A stretch of DNA of 64,000 nucleotides, taken from positions 1 through 64,000 of the forward strand of contig NZ_FOFD01000009.1 in the NCBI RefSeq assembly GCF_900110865.1, read 5' to 3'. The DNA is from Natrinema salaciae. GTDB taxonomy: Archaea > Halobacteriota > Halobacteria > Halobacteriales > Natrialbaceae. Below the pieces are notes generated by a model, which saw only the letters and a program-made list of their open reading frames with translations, was not told where the DNA came from and searched no databases. Each line of letters begins with the position of its first letter. The first letter of the stretch is position 1. A program made the translations under genes and the position numbers. Shown here one piece after another: positions 9,658 through 60,646 of the stretch.

Positions 9658-10146
9658 TCACTCGTCCGCGTACGATCCCTCCTCGAGCTGCATCTCGGGA
9701 ATCGACGGTGGCGCGTAGTACCGGACGACGTGGACGTCGTACGTCGGGTTTTCGGCGATGCCGCCGGCGACGCTGGTCACCGGATGGGCGATCTCGCCGA
9801 CGTTGTCGGTTCCGAGGAAGACGACCGACGGGCGGACGTCCTCGGCGATCGACCTGATTTGCGTCGCGATCGCCGCGGGCGTTTGCCGATCAATTCGCTC
9901 GTATCGGAACGCGGCTTGCGGGGCGATATCGGTGACACCCTCGTGGAGCTTTCCGGCGACGTACGGGACGCTAAACGGTTCGTCCTCCCCATCTTCGTAC
10001 CACCCGACGTCGATCGCGTACGCGTCGTCGTCCGGAACGACGGTCAGGGCGACCACGTCTTCGTCCAGCGCCTCGCCGTACTCGGCCGCCCGTAGCAGCG
10101 CTGCTTCGGCCAGATACGACCCGTCGAAGGGAACGAGAAACGTCAT
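9658..10146 (-). CDS. Divergent UspA-fold protein lacking the ATP loop
   Basis: 162 residues. The first strand TFLVPFDGSYLAEAALLRA is clearly Usp, and the fold continues through LTVVPDDD. The C-terminal loop that should read G-x2-G-x9-G-S is replaced by LGTDNVGEIAHPVTSV, so ATP binding is doubtful. The usp at 15211 is a close paralogue with the same loss (FVVPFDGSELAEAALVRA, GSENVGRVVTPLTSV). Start at 10146 gives the usual Usp N-terminus. A GTAGC-ttc-GCTAC hairpin sits nine bases before the ATG. Confidence 0.85.
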   Translation of the reverse strand: MTFLVPFDGSYLAEAALLRAAEYGEALDEDVVALTVVPDDDAYAIDVGWYEDGEDEPFSVPYVAGKLHEGVTDIAPQAAFRYERIDRQTPAAIATQIRSIAEDVRPSVVFLGTDNVGEIAHPVTSVAGGIAENPTYDVHVVRYYAPPSIPEMQLEEGSYADE

Positions 10147-10154
10147 TGCTATCG

Positions 10155-10167
10155 GTAGCTTCGCTAC
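10155..10167 (-). promoter_or_regulatory. Hairpin just before a usp start codon
   Basis: GTAGC-TTC-GCTAC is a perfect 5-3-5 inverted repeat ending nine bases upstream of the ATG at 10146. It could fold over the initiation region or be an operator. Confidence 0.35.
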
Positions 10168-10200
10168 TTGAAGTGAACAAGCTTGGGGTGTCCCCATCGC

Positions 10201-10644
10201 TTACCGAACGACAGTGACGGGAACCGGTGCCCGACGGACGACCCTCTCGGCGACGCTCCCGTAGACCGCTCGCTTCGTGTCGGACCGTCCGTGGGCACCG
10301 AGCACGATCTGATCGACGTCCTCGTCGGTGGCGTACTCGAGAACGAGGCGTTTCGGGTCGCCGATGTCGGAGTCGGTTGCAACCGATCGGTCGTAGTCGG
10401 CGGCGATCTCGTCGACTTCGGTGAAGCGTCGGTCTCTCACCTCGCCGACGAAGCGATACCACTCGTCGGAGCCGAGCATCGGTTCGTACATCGACGCGAC
10501 GGCTTGGTCCGCGTAGTCGGGTTCGAAGAGATCGATCACGTGGTACGCCGTGAGCTCCGCGTCGGGAAACTCGCGCAACGCGTACCGAAGGGCCCGCGAG
10601 GACAGCGGCGAGCCGTCGACGGGAACGAGAACCGTTCGTACCAT
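10201..10644 (-). CDS. Universal stress protein, single UspA domain
   Basis: 147 residues. Starts MVRTVLVPVDGSPLSSRALRYA and ends with the intact loop GAHGRSDTKRAVYGSVAERV. It belongs to the subgroup with a GSDEWY segment in the middle, shared with the usp at 17792. It precedes the divergent usp at 9658 by 54 bases on the same strand, so they could be one transcript. A CACTATTG TATA-like box lies about 27 bases upstream. Confidence 0.93.
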   Translation of the reverse strand: MVRTVLVPVDGSPLSSRALRYALREFPDAELTAYHVIDLFEPDYADQAVASMYEPMLGSDEWYRFVGEVRDRRFTEVDEIAADYDRSVATDSDIGDPKRLVLEYATDEDVDQIVLGAHGRSDTKRAVYGSVAERVVRRAPVPVTVVR

Positions 10645-10755: not shown

Positions 10756-11361
10756 TCAGGCTTCGCGATACCGTTCGGGGAGATACGGGACCAGCGGACC
10801 CGGTGCCAGACCGGCGAGACGCTCGGCGAGCGTCGCGAGGGATTTTCGAAACAGGACGTAGACGACCGAGACGGACAGGAGCGCGACCGTGACGACGATG
10901 ACGGGCCCGTCCCCGGTACCGACGAGCGGGACCGCGACGACCGCAGCGAGCGCGAGGTCTTCCGGTGCACCGTCGTAGCGGACGAAGCGGCGGGGTCGAA
11001 TCCAGCGGTCGTGATAGTGACTGTAAACCGCACGCTCGGATCCCTCTTTCCACGGCCGCAACTCGAGGCCGCCGCCCAGAACGTCGGCGACGGCGTGAAG
11101 TGCCGACGCGACGAGCGCGACGGCGAGTGCGACGGTCGTCGTCGACGGCGCGACGAGCGCGAGACCGACCGTCGGAACGGCAGCGACCGACGCGTAGACC
11201 GGATAGTGGAGGGTTTTCCGGTGGCCGACGTAGAGATCGAGGTCGGGGAGCAACCCGCCGACGAGTCCGGCTGCGAAGGCGGCAGGGGCGAACTCCGGAG
11301 CGATCGCGAGGACGGGGAGCGCGAGTAGCATCCCCCAGAGCACGTGAGTTGTCGCCATCAT
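10756..11361 (-). CDS. Membrane-bound metal-dependent hydrolase (YdjM/DUF457 type)
   Basis: 201 residues with four to five membrane segments. Family hallmarks are the N-terminal MATTHVLWG, GGLLPDLDLYVGHRKTLHY (about 35-53) and HAVADVLGGG (about 88-97), where His and Asp residues would bind metal. Related bacterial proteins are inner-membrane hydrolases of unknown substrate. An extra ATG directly precedes the chosen one's neighbour (MM), so the start may be three bases later. It lies 111 bases upstream of the usp at 10201 on the same strand. Confidence 0.8.
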   Translation of the reverse strand: MMATTHVLWGMLLALPVLAIAPEFAPAAFAAGLVGGLLPDLDLYVGHRKTLHYPVYASVAAVPTVGLALVAPSTTTVALAVALVASALHAVADVLGGGLELRPWKEGSERAVYSHYHDRWIRPRRFVRYDGAPEDLALAAVVAVPLVGTGDGPVIVVTVALLSVSVVYVLFRKSLATLAERLAGLAPGPLVPYLPERYREA

Positions 11362-11582: not shown

Positions 11583-12002
11583 ATGCCAATCGATGACTTA
11601 TCCCGAACCGACGTCGTAACGGCCGAACCGAACGCCCCAGTCACCGATCTCGCCGCCACGATGGATCGAGAGGCCGTCGGCAGCGTCGTGATCACCGACG
11701 GCGATTCGCTGGTCGGCATCGTGACCGATCGCGATCTGGTCGTCCGCGTCCTCGCCGACGACGCCGATCCGTCCGATCGAACGGCAGAAGACGTGATGAC
11801 CGACGACCTCTGTACGATCGATCGCAACGCCGGATTCTACGAGGCAATGAACGTGATGGCCGACAACGGAGTCCGTCGGCTGCCGGTCTGCGAGGGCGAC
11901 GAACTCGTCGGGATCATCACCGCAGACGACTTGACGGAACTCATCGCAGACGAGGAACAGCAACTCGCGGACGTCATCCGAGCGCAGCGGCCGGAGTACT
12001 GA
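11583..12002 (+). CDS. Two-CBS-domain protein (Hrp1-like length)
   Basis: 139 residues made of two CBS motifs: residues about 8-62 (GSVVITDGDSLVGIVTDRDL) and about 72-125 (GVRRLPVCEGDELVGIITADDL). CBS pairs bind adenine nucleotides and act as energy sensors. Length and lack of other domains match the mycobacterial hypoxic response protein Hrp1. Its 3' end overlaps the tail of the convergent CBS-HPF gene by 29 bases. A TATA-like TTACCTAG lies about 35 bases upstream. Confidence 0.88.
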   Translation: MPIDDLSRTDVVTAEPNAPVTDLAATMDREAVGSVVITDGDSLVGIVTDRDLVVRVLADDADPSDRTAEDVMTDDLCTIDRNAGFYEAMNVMADNGVRRLPVCEGDELVGIITADDLTELIADEEQQLADVIRAQRPEY

Positions 12003-13230
12003 CCGCCCACGATCGCGACCTCATTTTCCGCCGTGCAGGCGTCGGCGAGCGGGTCGCGGACCGACGCCCTCTTTCGCGCTGACGGCTCTTCTCGTCGCGG
12101 ATCTGTCGCTCGAGAACCACTCGCGCCTCGTTGAGTGCGTGACTCGCACCGTATCCCTCCCCGGAGGCGATGTAGAGCCCCCGATCGGTGTGCAGGCGGG
12201 CTCGCGCGAGCAGGAGGGGCCTCCCGCGACGCGTCTCGTCGTGTTCGTGGAGGTGGACCTTCGCGTCCAGCACGTTCATCCCGTGGTCCCTGTCGTCGAA
12301 CTTCTCGACCATCGCCACGATCTCCTCGTCGGTCGCGTCGTCTATCAGGTCGACGCCGTACACCTGGACGCTCCGGTTGCCGCCGGCCTCCCACGTGAGC
12401 GAGTCGAGAACGTCGGTCTTCGTGAGAATGCCGTACGGGGACCCGTCTTCCGTGACGATCAGCGACGAGCCGTCGATCTCGAACAGCTCGTCGACGGCCG
12501 TCTCGAGTGTCTCGTCTGGTCGTATCGTTCGCACCGGCGAGGTCATGACGTTCCTGACCGGCAGATCGAGCATCCGTTCGCGTTCGCCCTCTCGGGCACC
12601 GAACCCGCCGCGACGCGAGCGGGCGGTGCTGTCGGCTATCTCTCCGCCGAAGGGGTCCGTCCCGCTGGCATCCCCGCCCTGGCTCTGTACCTCGGCCCGC
12701 ACCGTGAGGTGGGTGACGTCGTAGAGGCTGAGGATACCGATCGCCGCGCCGTCCTCGACGACCGGGAGGTGCGTAATGTGATGCTCTCGGAAGGCGTTGA
12801 GTGCTTCCCCGAGCACCGACTCCGGAGCGAGCGAGACGAGGTCCGTGGACGCGGCCTCGGCGACGGTTGCGGCCTCGAGGAACGGTTTGACTTTCCGAAG
12901 GACTGCGTCCGCAGTGACGACACCGGCCAGTTCCCGCCCCTCGAACACGGGGAGTAGTTGCGCGTCGCTGTCGGTCATGAGCCGTGCCACCGTGCGAACG
13001 TTTTCGTCCGGCGCGAGTCTGGGGACGTGCCAGACCAGCGAACCGAGTTTTTCGTTCGGCTGCCGATGCGACGTGGCCAACTGTCGCCGCGTGACGACGC
13101 CCTCGAACTCCTCGCCGCGTACAACGACGCCCTTGACGCCGGAATCCGTGAACGTGCCGACGAGTTTCGACACGGGCGTTTCGGGAGCGAATTCGGTGTA
13201 CGCTTCCGAAATGATGTCAGCGATATCCAT
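11974..13230 (-). CDS. Four-CBS protein with C-terminal HPF/RaiA-like domain
   Basis: 418 residues. Four CBS motifs (about 8-55, 72-118, 125-180, 225-282) are followed by a region of about 100 residues (287-385) whose pattern is that of the hibernation-promoting factor fold: strand VQVYGVDL, helix DEEIVAMVEKF, strands DAKVHLHEH, LLLARARLHT and GLYIASGEG, then helix ASHALNEARVVLERQIRDE. HPF/RaiA binds the small ribosomal subunit; CBS domains bind AMP/ATP. Together this suggests an energy-gated ribosome-binding protein (inference). The last 35 residues are strongly basic and run antisense to the neighbouring gene, so the natural stop may have been lost. Confidence 0.85.
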   Translation of the reverse strand: MDIADIISEAYTEFAPETPVSKLVGTFTDSGVKGVVVRGEEFEGVVTRRQLATSHRQPNEKLGSLVWHVPRLAPDENVRTVARLMTDSDAQLLPVFEGRELAGVVTADAVLRKVKPFLEAATVAEAASTDLVSLAPESVLGEALNAFREHHITHLPVVEDGAAIGILSLYDVTHLTVRAEVQSQGGDASGTDPFGGEIADSTARSRRGGFGAREGERERMLDLPVRNVMTSPVRTIRPDETLETAVDELFEIDGSSLIVTEDGSPYGILTKTDVLDSLTWEAGGNRSVQVYGVDLIDDATDEEIVAMVEKFDDRDHGMNVLDAKVHLHEHDETRRGRPLLLARARLHTDRGLYIASGEGYGASHALNEARVVLERQIRDEKSRQRERGRRSATRSPTPARRKMRSRSWAVSTPAAALG

Positions 13231-16287: not shown

Positions 16288-16707
16288 TCACGCGGTCAAC
16301 ACCGGTCGGTCGGCGTGTCGAACGACCCGTTCGGCGACGCTCCCGATCTTGCCGTGGCGCTCGTGACTCTGTCCCTGAAAGCCGATCACGATCAGGTCGG
16401 CGTCGATCTCGTCGGCCTTTTTGTAGATCTCTTCCCACGGCTGCCCGTGGCAAACGGTCGAGGTACAGTCGATCCCGACGTTGTCCGCGCGATCGGCGAG
16501 CTCCTCGAGCATCGCCGCTCCCTGTTCCTCGAGTCTCTCGAGAACGATTTCGGCGCTACTTAGCGCGGGTTCGCCGTACCGGTGGGTCTCGACGCAGTAC
16601 ATCGCGTGAACGTCGGCCTCGTACATGTCGGCCAGTTCCAGCGTGTGTTCGACCGCGCGGTTCGCCGGATCGCTCCCGTCGGTCGGAACGAGTATCGTGT
16701 CGTACAT
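16288..16707 (-). CDS. Universal stress protein, single UspA domain
   Basis: 139 residues, start MYDTILVPTDGSDPANRAVEH. The nucleotide loop GFQGQSHERHGKIGS keeps the family spacing. It is a near relative of the next usp upstream (16821): both share the ETH/DTRRYGE segment and the HADRPV/YVDRPV ending, so the pair looks like a local duplication. An ACTATTTAG box lies about 30 bases ahead of the start. Confidence 0.93.
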   Translation of the reverse strand: MYDTILVPTDGSDPANRAVEHTLELADMYEADVHAMYCVETHRYGEPALSSAEIVLERLEEQGAAMLEELADRADNVGIDCTSTVCHGQPWEEIYKKADEIDADLIVIGFQGQSHERHGKIGSVAERVVRHADRPVLTA

Positions 16708-16820: not shown

Positions 16821-17225
16821 TCAGGCCGTAATCACCGGTCGATCGACGTACCTGACGACTCGTTCTGCCGTACTTCCGATCTCGCTGCCGGCCCCGAGCC
16901 CGCGGTTGCCAATCACGAGCAGATCGGCATCGATCTCCTCGGCGTACGCGTCGATCTGGTCGTGAGGACGGCCGTTACGGATCTCGGTCGTCACGGCGAT
17001 GTCGGCTCGCGCTTCGGTATCCCGCAGGAGGTCCATCGCCTGCGCTTCCAGATCCGCGACGGCCGTCTCCGAGTCCGTGAGCATCGACTCTCCGTACCGA
17101 CGGGTATCGACGACGTAGATCACGTGGAGGTCGGCATCGAACGTCGACGCGAGGTCGAGTGCGTGGTCGACCGCACGGTGCGCTGGCTCGCTTCCATCCG
17201 TCGCGGCGAGTATCGTCTCGTACAT
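16821..17225 (-). CDS. Universal stress protein, single UspA domain
   Basis: 134 residues, start MYETILAATDGSEPAHRAVDH. The nucleotide loop is GNRGLGAGSEIGS, two residues shorter than normal between the second Gly and the final Gly-Ser. Tandem duplicate of the usp at 16288, but with its own strong TATA box (17252-17262), so the two can be regulated separately. Confidence 0.93.
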   Translation of the reverse strand: MYETILAATDGSEPAHRAVDHALDLASTFDADLHVIYVVDTRRYGESMLTDSETAVADLEAQAMDLLRDTEARADIAVTTEIRNGRPHDQIDAYAEEIDADLLVIGNRGLGAGSEIGSTAERVVRYVDRPVITA

Positions 17226-17791: not shown

Positions 17792-18253
17792 CTACTGTTC
17801 CGTGTCGCCGCGAACTACCGTGACGGTTACCGGCGAGCGACGGACGACCATCTCGGCGACGCTCCCGATCAGCAGCCGGGTCACCCCCGTTCGACCGTGA
17901 CTGCCCATGACGATCTGATCGACCTCGTGGTCTTCGGCGTAGTCGACGATCTCGCGCGCAGGTTCGCCGACCGCACGTTCGGTCTCGAGAGTCACGTCGG
18001 AGTCGGCCGCCAGTTCGCGGGCGTCGTCGAAGATGCGCTCCTCCTCCTCGCCCGCCCGCTCGTACCACTCGTCGGAGCCGTGGCGCGGTTCGTTTCGAAC
18101 GTCGACCTCGGTCGCGGAACTGTACCCCGGGTCCGTCGGATCGAGGACGTGAAGCGCGACGATCGAGACGTCCTCGTACTCTTCGAGGGCGAACTCGAGC
18201 GCTTGCTTCGATAGCGGTGAGTCATCCAGGGGAACGAGCAAGTGGCGAGACAT
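17792..18253 (-). CDS. Universal stress protein, single UspA domain
   Basis: 153 residues, start MSRHLLVPLDDSPLSKQALE. Intact loop GSHGRTGVTRLLIGSVAEM. The middle contains HGSDEWYERAGEEEERIF, the GSDEWY feature shared with the usp at 10201. A short acidic tail (RGDTEQ) follows the last strand. A TAGTATTTTG box lies about 25 bases upstream. Confidence 0.93.
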   Translation of the reverse strand: MSRHLLVPLDDSPLSKQALEFALEEYEDVSIVALHVLDPTDPGYSSATEVDVRNEPRHGSDEWYERAGEEEERIFDDARELAADSDVTLETERAVGEPAREIVDYAEDHEVDQIVMGSHGRTGVTRLLIGSVAEMVVRRSPVTVTVVRGDTEQ

Positions 18254-28766: not shown

Positions 28767-31370
28767 TCACCACTCGAGTCGCCTGACGAGTGCAGCGACC
28801 GCGACGTAGGCGGGCAGACACACCACGAGCACGACGCCGACGAGCGCCCAGTCCGCCGGCCCGAGCGGAACGGTCCCGAAATATCGGTTGAGCGGCGTGT
28901 ACAGCACCGCGAGCTGGAGCGCGATCGAGGTCGCGACGGCGGCCGCGAGCCACGGATTCGACAGCGTCGGCGTCTCGCGAAGCCAGCGGATGACGTAGAG
29001 CTTCGCGAACTCGAGGAAGACGAACGCGGTAAAGACCACGGTCATCGCGTACGCCGTCACCGCGGTCGCCCCCTCGAGCGTGTAGAACATGAGCGCGAGC
29101 GTGACGACCGTCGTGACGGTCCCGGTCCCGCCGATCAGTCCGAGCATGGGACGGCTGATGATCCCCCGATCGGGATCGCGCGGCGGTCGATCCATCACGT
29201 CGCCGCTTTCGGGATCGGCGCCCAGCGCCAGCGCCGGTAGCCCGTCGGTCAGGAGATTGATCCACAGCAGTTGCACGGCCGGCAGGATGAGATAGCCGTA
29301 CAGTGAAGCGACGAAGACGATCGCCACCTCTGCGACGTTCGCGCTGAGGAGGTACGCGACGAACTTCCAGATGTTGTCGAAGATCGCCCGGCCGCGTTCG
29401 ACGGCTCGTTCCATCGTCGCGTAGTTGTCGTCCAGCAGGACGATGTCCGAGGCCTGCCTGGCGACGTCCGTCCCGCGAACCCCCATCGCGACGCCGACGT
29501 CGGCGTTCTTCAGCGCCGGCGCGTCGTTGACGCCGTCGCCGGTCATCGCGACGTCGTTCCCCCGCGCCTGCAACGCCTGCAGAATACGGACCTTGTGTTC
29601 GGGCGACGTCCGCGCGAAGACATCGACGGACGCGACGCGCTCGCGGAGCGTCTCGTCGTCCATCCGTTCGATCGACCGCCCCTCGAGCACCTCGGTTCCG
29701 ATCCCCAGCGACTCCGCGATCGCCCGCGCGGTTCGGACGTTGTCGCCGGTGACCATCTTCACCGCGATCCCCGCGCGCCGCGTCACCGCGATCGCGTCGG
29801 CGACCTCCTCGCGGGGCGGATCGAGCATTCCGGTCAGGCCGACGAACGTGAGGTCGCCAGCGAGGTCGCCAGCGTCGGACGGATCGTCGCGATAGGCCAT
29901 CGCCAGCACGCGGAGCGCGTCGTCGCCGAACTCCCGAACCGTCGTCTCGATTCGGTCACGCCGATCGTCGGTCAGGGGCTTCGGCCCGTCGGCGGTCAGA
30001 ATCCGATCACAGTTCTCCACGACGACCTCCGGTGCGCCCTTGACGTAGCCGACGCCGTCGTGGACGGTCCCCATCCACTTGCGTTCGGAGGAGAACGCCA
30101 CCTCGTCGGTCCGTGGGTTCGCGTCCCGGAGCCGGTCGACGTCGAGGCCGCGGCGATCGGCCGCGTCGACCAACGCCAGTTCTGTGGGATCACCGTCGTC
30201 GTCCGCGAGCGTCGCATCGTTACAGAGCGCGCCGATCCGCAGGAGCAGTTCCTCGCGGTTGGAGCCGACGTCCGGGTCGGGCTCGCTCGAGTCGAGTTCG
30301 ATCACGGCGTCGTTCACCCAGAGCGTGCTGACGGTCATCTGGCCTTTCGTGAGCGTCCCCGTCTTGTCGGTGCAGACGACGTCGACGGCACCCAGCGCCT
30401 CGACCGCCGGGAGCCGCCTGACGAGCGCGTTCTCGTCGGACATCGAGCGCACGCCGAGCGCGAGCGTGAGCGTGACGACGGCCGGTAACCCCTCGGGAAT
30501 CGCCGCGACGGCCAGCGACACCGCGGTCAGTGCGGCCTGAACCGCGGTCGTTCCGCGCAGGAGCAACAGCGGTGCGACCAGCGCCGAGAGGGCGAGCACG
30601 CCGAGTCCGAGCGTGCGACCCAGTTCGTCGAGTTCGTCCTGCAGGGGCGTCCGCGTCTCCTCGGTCATGGCGAGTTCCCGAGCGATCGCGCCGACCTCGG
30701 TCTCCATCCCCGTTCCGGTGACGACCGCGACACCCTTCCCGCGCGTGACGCTGGTCCCGTTGTACACCATACTCGTTCGCTCCGCGAGGGGCGTCTCCGG
30801 CCCGACCGGCGCTGCGGACTTCGCGACCGGAACGCTCTCGCCGGTCAGCGCCGCCTCGTCGACCTCGAGGTCGGTCGCCTCGAGCAGTCGGCCGTCCGCG
30901 GGGACGACGTCGCCGCCGCGCAACAGGAGGACGTCGCCGGGAACGAGTGCCGTGGCGTCGACCGCACGAACCTCGCCGCTCCGTCGAACCGTCGCCGTCG
31001 GGGCGGCCAGTTCGCGCAGCGACTCGAGGCTCCGCTCGGCCCGGTAGTCCTGGACGAATCCGAAGACGCCGTTGGCGACCACGATGATCGCGATCAGGAC
31101 TGCGTCGACGACGTGCCCCGCCCAGATCGAGAGGCCGGCCGCGGCCAACAGAACCCAGATCAGGGCGCTGTCGAACTGCGCGACGAAAATGTCGATCGGC
31201 GATCGCCCGCCCGCTCGAACGATGTCGTTCTCGCCGTGTTCTTCGCGTCGTCGTCGGACCTCGTCGTCCGTCAGTCCGTCGCGTCGCGACTCGACTGCCG
31301 CTACGACGCGTTCGGCCGGCTCTTCGTGTGAGCTACCGGACACTGCTCGGTTTTCCAGCCGAAACGCCAT
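28767..31370 (-). CDS. Type II P-type cation ATPase (PMR1/CtpF-like)
   Basis: 867 residues. N-terminal cation-ATPase domain, LTGESVPV actuator loop (near 170), PEGLP in helix M4, phosphorylated Asp335 in [10 protein letters not shown], nucleotide-domain KGAPEVV, hinge [11 protein letters not shown] and a C-terminal block of six helices. The PEGLP motif and length are those of Ca2+/Mn2+ or Na+/K+-type pumps; no Cys-Pro-Cys, so not a copper pump. CtpF of the mycobacterial DosR regulon is the same class. It lies just downstream of the amphi-Trp remnant's divergent side and is monocistronic. Confidence 0.92.
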
Positions 31371-57986: not shown

Positions 57987-58031
57987 CTTTGGATTTCTAT
58001 CAGAAATAGAGGTAAGTGACGGCCCCTTATA
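57987..58031 (+). promoter_or_regulatory. copA promoter with CTTTGGATT box
   Basis: CTTTGGATT at 57987-57995 overlaps the perfect repeat ATTTCT-atc-AGAAAT (57993-58007). An AGGTAAGTGA element at 58010-58019 stands where the regulator promoter has its TATA box. The box-to-start distance is 53 bases here and 56 bases before the regulator. A second TATA-like TTATAAG at 58026-58032 is too close to the start to serve a leaderless message. Confidence 0.6.
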
Positions 58032-58039
58032 AGACAATA

Positions 58040-60646
58040 GTGACTCATCGAACCACGCACCTCGAGATCCAGGGGATGAGCTGCGCGAACTGTTCACAGT
58101 CGATCACCGACGCCCTGGAGGCGCTCGACGGGGTATCGGAGGCGACCATCAACTTCGCCACCGACGAGGGCTCCGTCGAGTACGACCCGGGAGCGGTATC
58201 GCTCCGGGAGATCTACGACGCGATCGACGAAGCCGGCTACCACGCCGAGTCCGCCACCGCCTCGATCGGGATCGCCGACATGACGTGTGCGAACTGCGCC
58301 GACACCAACGAGGAGGCGCTCGAGTCGGTTCCCGGCGTCATCGACGCGGAGGCGAACTACGCGACCGACGAGGCACAGGTCGAATTCAACCCCGCCGACG
58401 TCTCGCGGTCGGCGCTCTACGACACGGTCGAGAAGGCGGGCTACACGCCCATCCGCGACGACGACGGTGCCGAGGAGTCGGACCAGGAACGGCGCGACGC
58501 CGCCCGGCAGGCGGAGATCGACAAACAGCTCCGGCTGACCCTCTTCGGGGCGGTGCTGTCGGCCCCGTTCCTGTTGTTCCTGGCCGATCGGTTCCTGCTC
58601 GGTGGGAGCGTCTTCCCCGAGACCGTCTTCGGCCTCGAGTTCGAGTGGATCGGCTTCCTGCTCGCGACGCCCGTCCAGCTCGTCCTCGGGCGGCCGTTCT
58701 ACGTGAACTCCTACAAGGCGATCGTGAAGAACGGGCGGGCGAACATGGACGTCCTCATCGCGCTGGGCTCGTCGACGGCGTACGTCTACAGCGTCGCCGT
58801 CCTGCTCGGGCAGGTCGCCGGAGAGACGTACTTCGACACCGCGGCGCTGATCCTCGTGTTCATCACGCTCGGGAACTACCTCGAGGCCCGCTCGAAGGGG
58901 CAGGCCGGCGACGCGCTCCGGAAGCTCCTCGAGATGGAGGCCGAGACGGCCACGGTCGTCGACGCGGACGGCACCGAGCGTGAGGTCCCGCTCGAGGACG
59001 TCGACGTCGGCGATCGGATGAAGGTCCGGCCCGGCGAGAAGATCCCGACCGACGGGGTCGTCGTGGACGGGCAGTCGGCCGTCGACGAATCGATGGTGAC
59101 CGGCGAGTCCGTCCCCGTCGAGACGGAGGAGGGCGACGAAGTGGTTGGCTCGACGATCAACGAGAACGGCGTGTTGGTCGTCGAGGCGACGAAGGTCGGC
59201 TCGGACACGGCGCTCCAGCAGATCGTCCGGACGGTCAAGGAGGCCCAGTCCCGTCAGCCGGAGATTCAGAACATCGCCGACCGGATCTCGGCGTACTTCG
59301 TTCCCGCGGTCATCGCCAACGCCCTGTTCTGGGGGACCGTGTGGTTCCTCTTCCCCGAGGCGCTGGCCGGCTTCGTCGACCAGGTACCCCTGTGGGGACA
59401 GGTCGCCGGCGGACCCGCCCCCGCAGGCGGCTCCGTCTCGGTCTTCGAATTCGCGATCGTCGTGTTCGCCTCGGCGGTCCTGATCGCCTGTCCCTGCGCG
59501 CTCGGACTGGCGACGCCCGCGGCGACGATGGTCGGGACGGCGATCGGCGCTCAGAACGGCGTCCTCTTCAAGGGCGGTGACGTCCTGGAGCGCGCGAAGG
59601 ACGTCGACACGGTCGTCTTCGACAAGACCGGGACGCTCACCGAGGGCGAGATGGAACTGACCGACGTCGTCGTCTTCGACGCGGACGACCAACCGGTGCC
59701 AGACGGCGGGGCGGCAGCGGCCGACAGCGATACCCCTGCGATCCGCGACCGACTGACCGAGGACGACGTCCTCGGACTCGCCGCGGCGGCAGAGAGCGGC
59801 AGCGAACACCCGCTCGCCCGAGCCATCGTCGAGGGGGCCGAAGAACGCGGCATCGACGTCGTCGACCCGGACGAGTTCGAGAACGTGCCGGGACACGGGG
59901 TCCGCGCCACCGTCGACGGCGGCGAGGTGCTCGTCGGGAACCGCAAACTGCTGCGGGACAACGGGGTCGACCCCGCGCCCGCCGCGGAGACGATGGAGCG
60001 CCTCGAGAAGGAGGGCAAGACGGCGATGCTCGTCGCCTACGAGGGCGCGCTCGCGGGCGTGGTCGCCGACGCCGACACCGTCAAAGCGAGCGCCGAGGAG
60101 GCGGTCGCCGCACTCCGCGAGCGGGGCATCGACGTGATGATGATCACGGGCGACAACGAACGGACGGCCCGCGCCGTCGCCGAACGGGTTGGCATCGACC
60201 CGGAGAACGTTCGCGCCGAGGTCCTCCCCGAGGACAAGTCCAGCGCGGTCGAGGCGATCCAGGCCGAGGGTCGGGAGGCGATGATGGTCGGTGACGGCGT
60301 CAACGACGCGCCCGCGCTGGCCGTCGCGCACGTCGGCACGGCGATCGGTAGCGGGACGGACGTCGCCATCGAGGCGGCCGACGTGACGCTGATGCGCGAC
60401 GACCCGGTCGACGTCGTGAAGGCGATCCGTATCTCCGACGCGACGCTCCAGAAGATCAAGCAGAACCTCGTCTGGGCGCTCGGCTACAACACGACGCTCA
60501 TCCCGCTGGCCTCGCTCGGGCTGCTCCAGCCGGTGCTGGCCGCCGCGGCGATGGCGTTCTCAAGCGTCTCCGTGCTGTCGAACAGCCTGCTGTTCCGTCG
60601 GTACGTCCCCGACCACGACTACGAGTTGCTCGGGTTCCTGCGCTGA
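58040..60646 (+). CDS. copA: Copper-exporting P1B-type ATPase
   Basis: 868 residues from a GTG at 58040, which gives a normal N-terminus before the first heavy-metal domain. Two metal-binding domains with MSCANC (Cys15, Cys18) and MTCANC (Cys83, Cys86), TGESVPV actuator loop, ion-site CPC at Cys484-Cys486, phosphorylated Asp528 in [19 protein letters not shown] (His-Pro of P1B pumps) and GDGVNDAP. It exports Cu+ across the cell membrane. Its promoter shares a motif with the adjacent copper regulator. Confidence 0.96.

Follow-up and report, generated by a model that had tools for sequence, protein, structure and literature searches.

The window analysed here is a stretch of 64,000 nucleotides from contig NZ_FOFD01000009.1 of the haloarchaeon Natrinema salaciae, and the gene under study encodes a protein in which a module of four CBS domains is followed by a domain resembling the ribosome hibernation factors HPF and RaiA (Table 1). 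The codon composition of the reading frame (13230..11974, minus strand) is coding-like, with GC1/2/3 of 0.70/0.47/0.81. The preliminary description had placed a stand-alone two-CBS gene tail to tail with this gene, inside an island of universal stress protein (usp) genes, and both the neighbour and the island are real. The two-CBS gene was rejected as a fixed partner, clear homologs being found at only 4-5 of 39 related loci. The usp genes cluster on the 114.6-kb contig (window 9658-18253 and 2390-51424), and 71 Usp matches occur genome-wide. Adjoining the two-CBS gene is a YdjM-like membrane protein (window 10756-11361) that scores slightly below the Pfam cut-off, and two large ORFs of the same island (window 58016-60646 and 28767-31370) resemble metal/cation P-type ATPases by eye. 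An Rfam scan of the window returned no RNA feature, and a search for sigma-70-type promoters found none; such promoters are not expected in an archaeon.

Table 1. Positions in the window of the hibA-type gene, its parts and its neighbours.
Feature	Position	Strand	Remarks
hibA-type gene (very probably an accessory, long-loop HibA)	11974..13230	(-)	ATG start, 418 aa
CBS module, four CBS domains	12397..13230	(-)	Pfam, AlphaFold, alignment
Glycine-rich CBS3-CBS4 loop, residues 178-214	12589..12699	(-)	alignment; site of the P. abyssi HibA PTC loop (PMC13324472)
HPF/RaiA-like domain, residues 279-392	12055..12396	(-)	Pfam sub-threshold, profile, AlphaFold, Foldseek
Non-homologous C-terminal end, residues ~385-418	11974..12087	(-)	replaces conserved tail; overlaps two-CBS gene 3' end by 29 bp
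Stand-alone two-CBS protein	11586..12002	(+)	tail to tail with hibA-type gene
Universal stress protein	10201..10644	(-)	one of several flanking hibA-type gene
Further flanking universal stress proteins	9658..10197, 16288..16707, 16821..17225, 17792..18253		

The four CBS motifs read earlier from the sequence are recognised by Pfam as four N-terminal CBS domains (112 bits; residues ~1-53, 64-116, 123-174 and 222-278), and the AlphaFold model of the full chain (mean pLDDT 83.5) agrees. In that model residues 288-393 follow the order E-H-E-E-E-H, which is also obtained when the domain is modelled alone (pLDDT 77.8). The preliminary description had assigned residues ~287-385 to an HPF/RaiA-like domain and had proposed a structural comparison as the check; when the isolated domain was submitted to Foldseek, the top matches were all chloroplast or bacterial HPF, RaiA, YfiA and protein Y (E ~1e-4), with TM-scores against HPF/pY of up to 0.80 by target. 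A profile of the C-terminal domain from 52 relatives, run against the PDB, retrieved bacterial HPFs at E 0.0009-0.006 besides HibA, so that profile, AlphaFold and Foldseek all agree on the assignment. The Pfam model S30AE/HPF (PF02482) matches residues 296-385 with 15.8 bits (E 0.024), under its curated cut-off of 23.7 bits, and reaches E <= 0.01 in 14 of the 52 relatives. This low score is what could be cited for a domain that is HPF-like superficially only and has no role at the ribosome, a reading that we find scarcely credible given the fold match to HPF/pY, the profile match to bacterial HPFs and the homology to HibA solved on ribosomes; the profile and Foldseek matches, together with the published work, largely refute it (PMC13324472). 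Bacterial and chloroplast HPF, RaiA and protein Y have the fold of residues 279-392 in common with the window protein but lack a CBS module, and their sequence identity to the domain is very low (9-28%).

The fusion of CBS and HPF domains is not new. Four CBS domains plus HPF/RaiA define HibA, an archaeal family of ribosome hibernation factors described in Nat Commun in April 2026 (PMC13324472). HibA adopts three conformations on the P. abyssi 70S ribosome. Its HPF domain occupies the mRNA/tRNA channel of the 30S subunit, and its CBS3-CBS4 loop is inserted into the peptidyl-transferase centre (PTC); the protein blocks translation in vitro, and deletion of HibA in T. barophilus lowered stationary-phase 70S by ~60% and delayed regrowth (PMC13324472). 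A phmmer comparison with P. abyssi HibA (9sr9) aligned both halves of the protein, almost from end to end, at E 2e-28. The P. abyssi protein (Q9UYR4; PDB 9sr9 group) has in common with the window protein the four CBS domains, the HPF/RaiA domain, the CBS3-CBS4 loop and the CBS3/CBS4 aspartates (PMC13324472), differs in a loop ~25 residues shorter, and is ~23-29% identical to it by domain. The HPF domain, which in HibA carries two archaeal-specific insertions (PMC13324472), is 115 residues long in the window protein and 114 in P. abyssi HibA. By fold, the CBS part of the window protein matched AMPK gamma and two sets of CBS modules that bind archaeal ribosomes, Dri of Pyrobaculum (PDB 9e7f) and SriA-D of Methanosarcina (PDB 9znf, 9zng, 9zni). 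Dri consists of two fused CBS modules and the Sri proteins of separate ones, in both cases without an HPF domain, whereas the window protein joins one module to an HPF domain. We regard the window protein, with high confidence, as an accessory HibA.

A second, core HibA of 385 aa is encoded in the same genome (contig 1, 96866-98020); it has the same architecture and is 34-38% identical to the window protein by domain. Core HibA, whose loop in haloarchaea measures 12-13 residues, was present in 43 of the 44 haloarchaeal genomes examined. A basal long-loop form is the sole HibA match in the 44th, the core gene there apparently having been replaced or being missing from the assembly. HVO_2384 of Hfx. 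volcanii has the same architecture as HibA (PMC12607858) and may be of either the core or the accessory type. Beside core hibA, on the opposite strand, lies an ORF that by eye encodes a RecA/RadB-like ATPase. This neighbour is of note, since in Thermococcales pull-downs proteins of recombination and replication came down together with HibA (PMC13324472). The accessory type represented by the window protein, counted where a genome has a full-length match of at least 58% identity, occurs in 26 of the 145 sampled genomes, and ~20 further genomes of this sample have related types at 39-52% identity; within its own genus it occurs in 10 of 29 genomes. Relatives are found on 46 plasmid records. Among viral contigs no virus-borne relatives were confirmed, and one DNA pattern match there looks like an internal repeat. 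A single H. mediterranei strain has two distinct accessory HibA genes, one on plasmid pHME505 and the other on plasmid pHME132.

The loop between CBS3 and CBS4 is 26-37 residues long in all 73 aligned accessory sequences, the window protein having 37, compared with 10-13 in core HibA, other Halobacteriota and P. abyssi HibA. Residues G185, G186, G208, G209, G211, R213 and, just past the loop, G215 are invariant in 73/73 accessory sequences, and the loop is disordered in the AlphaFold model (pLDDT < 50). In trees built without the loop and the tail, the long loop requires one change, and the long-loop clade is supported at 95 in a quick tree and 95/93 in a careful one; the expansion thus has a single origin, at or before the haloarchaeal spread, and has been retained since. 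With a loop ~15-25 residues longer, proteins of the accessory clade may reach further into the PTC of the 50S subunit or bind more tightly there.

Such a contact with the 50S subunit would fit both a set of apparent large-subunit entries in the PDB and the published work on P. abyssi, which reports no complex of HibA with 50S alone (PMC13324472). Chain a of PDB 9l96 is identical to the window protein at 269 of 392 residues (69%; E 2.5e-179) and corresponds, over the 392 residues compared, to WP_004060604.1, encoded on plasmid pHME505 of Haloferax mediterranei. This protein is of the same clade type as the window protein and has the same 37-residue loop. The large-subunit protein uL16 is likewise present in entries 9l96, 9l98, 9l9c and 9l9v, and searches with haloarchaeal uS12, uS7 and uL1 sequences returned no chain from these four. 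We read the group, from its sequences, as models of the large subunit in complex with the CBS-HPF protein, with the qualification that a 70S particle of which the 50S part had been refined would look alike; it is probably a ribosome structure with a close relative of the window protein at the tRNA/mRNA sites. A literature search found no publication for PDB 9l94-9l9v. Together with the HibA architecture, the HPF fold and the ribosome function shown for HibA in Thermococcales, the presence of a 69%-identical ortholog in entries with uL16 supports the ribosome-silencing role put forward in the preliminary description. Architecture, fold and family membership suggest that the window copy, too, would act in hibernation.

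The preliminary description had further supposed that the CBS pairs read AMP/ATP and that the protein could thus silence ribosomes when energy falls. The aspartates of the ribose sites of CBS3 (D171) and CBS4 (D273) are intact and invariant in 121/121 aligned sequences, whereas the equivalent positions of CBS1 and CBS2 have no conserved Asp in the same alignment. This pattern fits the binding of one AMP at CBS3/CBS4, as in P. abyssi HibA, which holds one AMP per module at this position with a Kd of 12 uM (PMC13324472). AMP, and more weakly ADP or ATP, is accordingly predicted at the CBS3/CBS4 interface of the window protein. Nucleotide binding is thus likely, but the step from binding to silencing finds no parallel in P. 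abyssi, where neither AMP nor ATP altered ribosome binding, the conformations stayed the same with AMP and the effect of ATP was small (PMC13324472).

The window copy departs from its orthologs at the C-terminus. Ortholog ends read '...KTYGRSKKPPGEEFWEKRFGWLLEE', with the tail motif 'SKKPP..EFWEKRFGWLLEE', and orthologs read to the stop carry a conserved tail such as SKKPPGEEFWEKRFGWLLEE, or AEYWEKRFGWMLEGE in H. mediterranei WP_004060604.1. In the window copy the ~20 conserved terminal residues are missing, and the chain ends in ~32 residues of unrelated sequence. Similarity to other loci halts at ~12087 and resumes only within the two-CBS gene at 11992; past ~12087 the ORF crosses unrelated DNA and then enters that gene at its 3' end. 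A C-terminal frameshift was rejected because no frame of the window contains the conserved tail, which has thus been lost or replaced, not shifted. We take the loss as a rearrangement in this lineage, or possibly as an assembly fault, and the tail-less copy may be altered in function. That the gene is a damaged allele, its function gone with the tail, seems unlikely to us. The absence of the tail from all frames and the gap in similarity from 12087 to 11992 favour such damage, as does the position of the P. abyssi HibA C-terminus near the SD:antiSD duplex (PMC13324472). Yet the HPF fold ends ahead of the non-conserved tail and is intact to ~residue 386, the frame is open, and dN/dS against orthologs is low (~0.14-0.21), which argues against a long decay of the window gene; moreover, many contacts of P. 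abyssi HibA are redundant, and two insertions could be deleted from it with inhibition kept (PMC13324472).

A stand-alone CBS module can serve as a transcription regulator, as HhpR does. For the window protein, a HibA fold that has been kept while its job has changed to that of a CBS-based, nucleotide-sensing regulator of a non-ribosomal target appears very improbable. An accessory paralog with a remodelled loop, present alongside a retained core HibA, leaves room for such a change, and so do the Thermococcales pull-downs mentioned above; against it, the HPF domain is kept in all aligned accessory sequences, and the PDB entries that include the H. mediterranei ortholog include uL16 as well.

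The accessory genes also differ from core hibA in their surroundings. Per 10 kb there are 1.43 usp genes around accessory hibA, compared with 0.15 around core hibA and 0.08 at arbitrary positions in such genomes, an enrichment of ten to eighteen times over both controls. Loci with usp genes number 25/40 for accessory hibA, 4/20 for core hibA and 2/20 for arbitrary sites (Fisher p 0.0025 and 0.0001, values that are optimistic, as some of the 40 loci come from close relatives). This usp-rich, often plasmid-borne setting suggests that the accessory protein supplements, under stress, the core HibA that another part of the genome encodes, and accessory hibA would accordingly be expressed in times of stress. 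We tentatively propose, as a possibility that we rate somewhat below even, that haloarchaeal hibernation has two layers, a near-universal core HibA and an accessory, often plasmid-borne long-loop HibA whose glycine-rich loop would enable it to hold and protect the 50S subunit as such, an activity not observed for P. abyssi HibA. The four H. mediterranei entries, which include uL16 and gave no match to haloarchaeal uS12 or uS7, support this proposal.

No description of a long-loop, usp-linked, often plasmid-borne subfamily was found in the literature searched. A protein hitherto annotated just as 'CBS domain-containing' can now be placed, with the confidence given above, in a defined hibernation family. 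Haloarchaea moreover carry an extra, mobile form of this factor with a distinct, strictly conserved loop at the point from which the catalytic centre of the ribosome is reached, offering a testable case of a dormancy function supplied by plasmids and a natural variant with which the role of the PTC loop may be probed.
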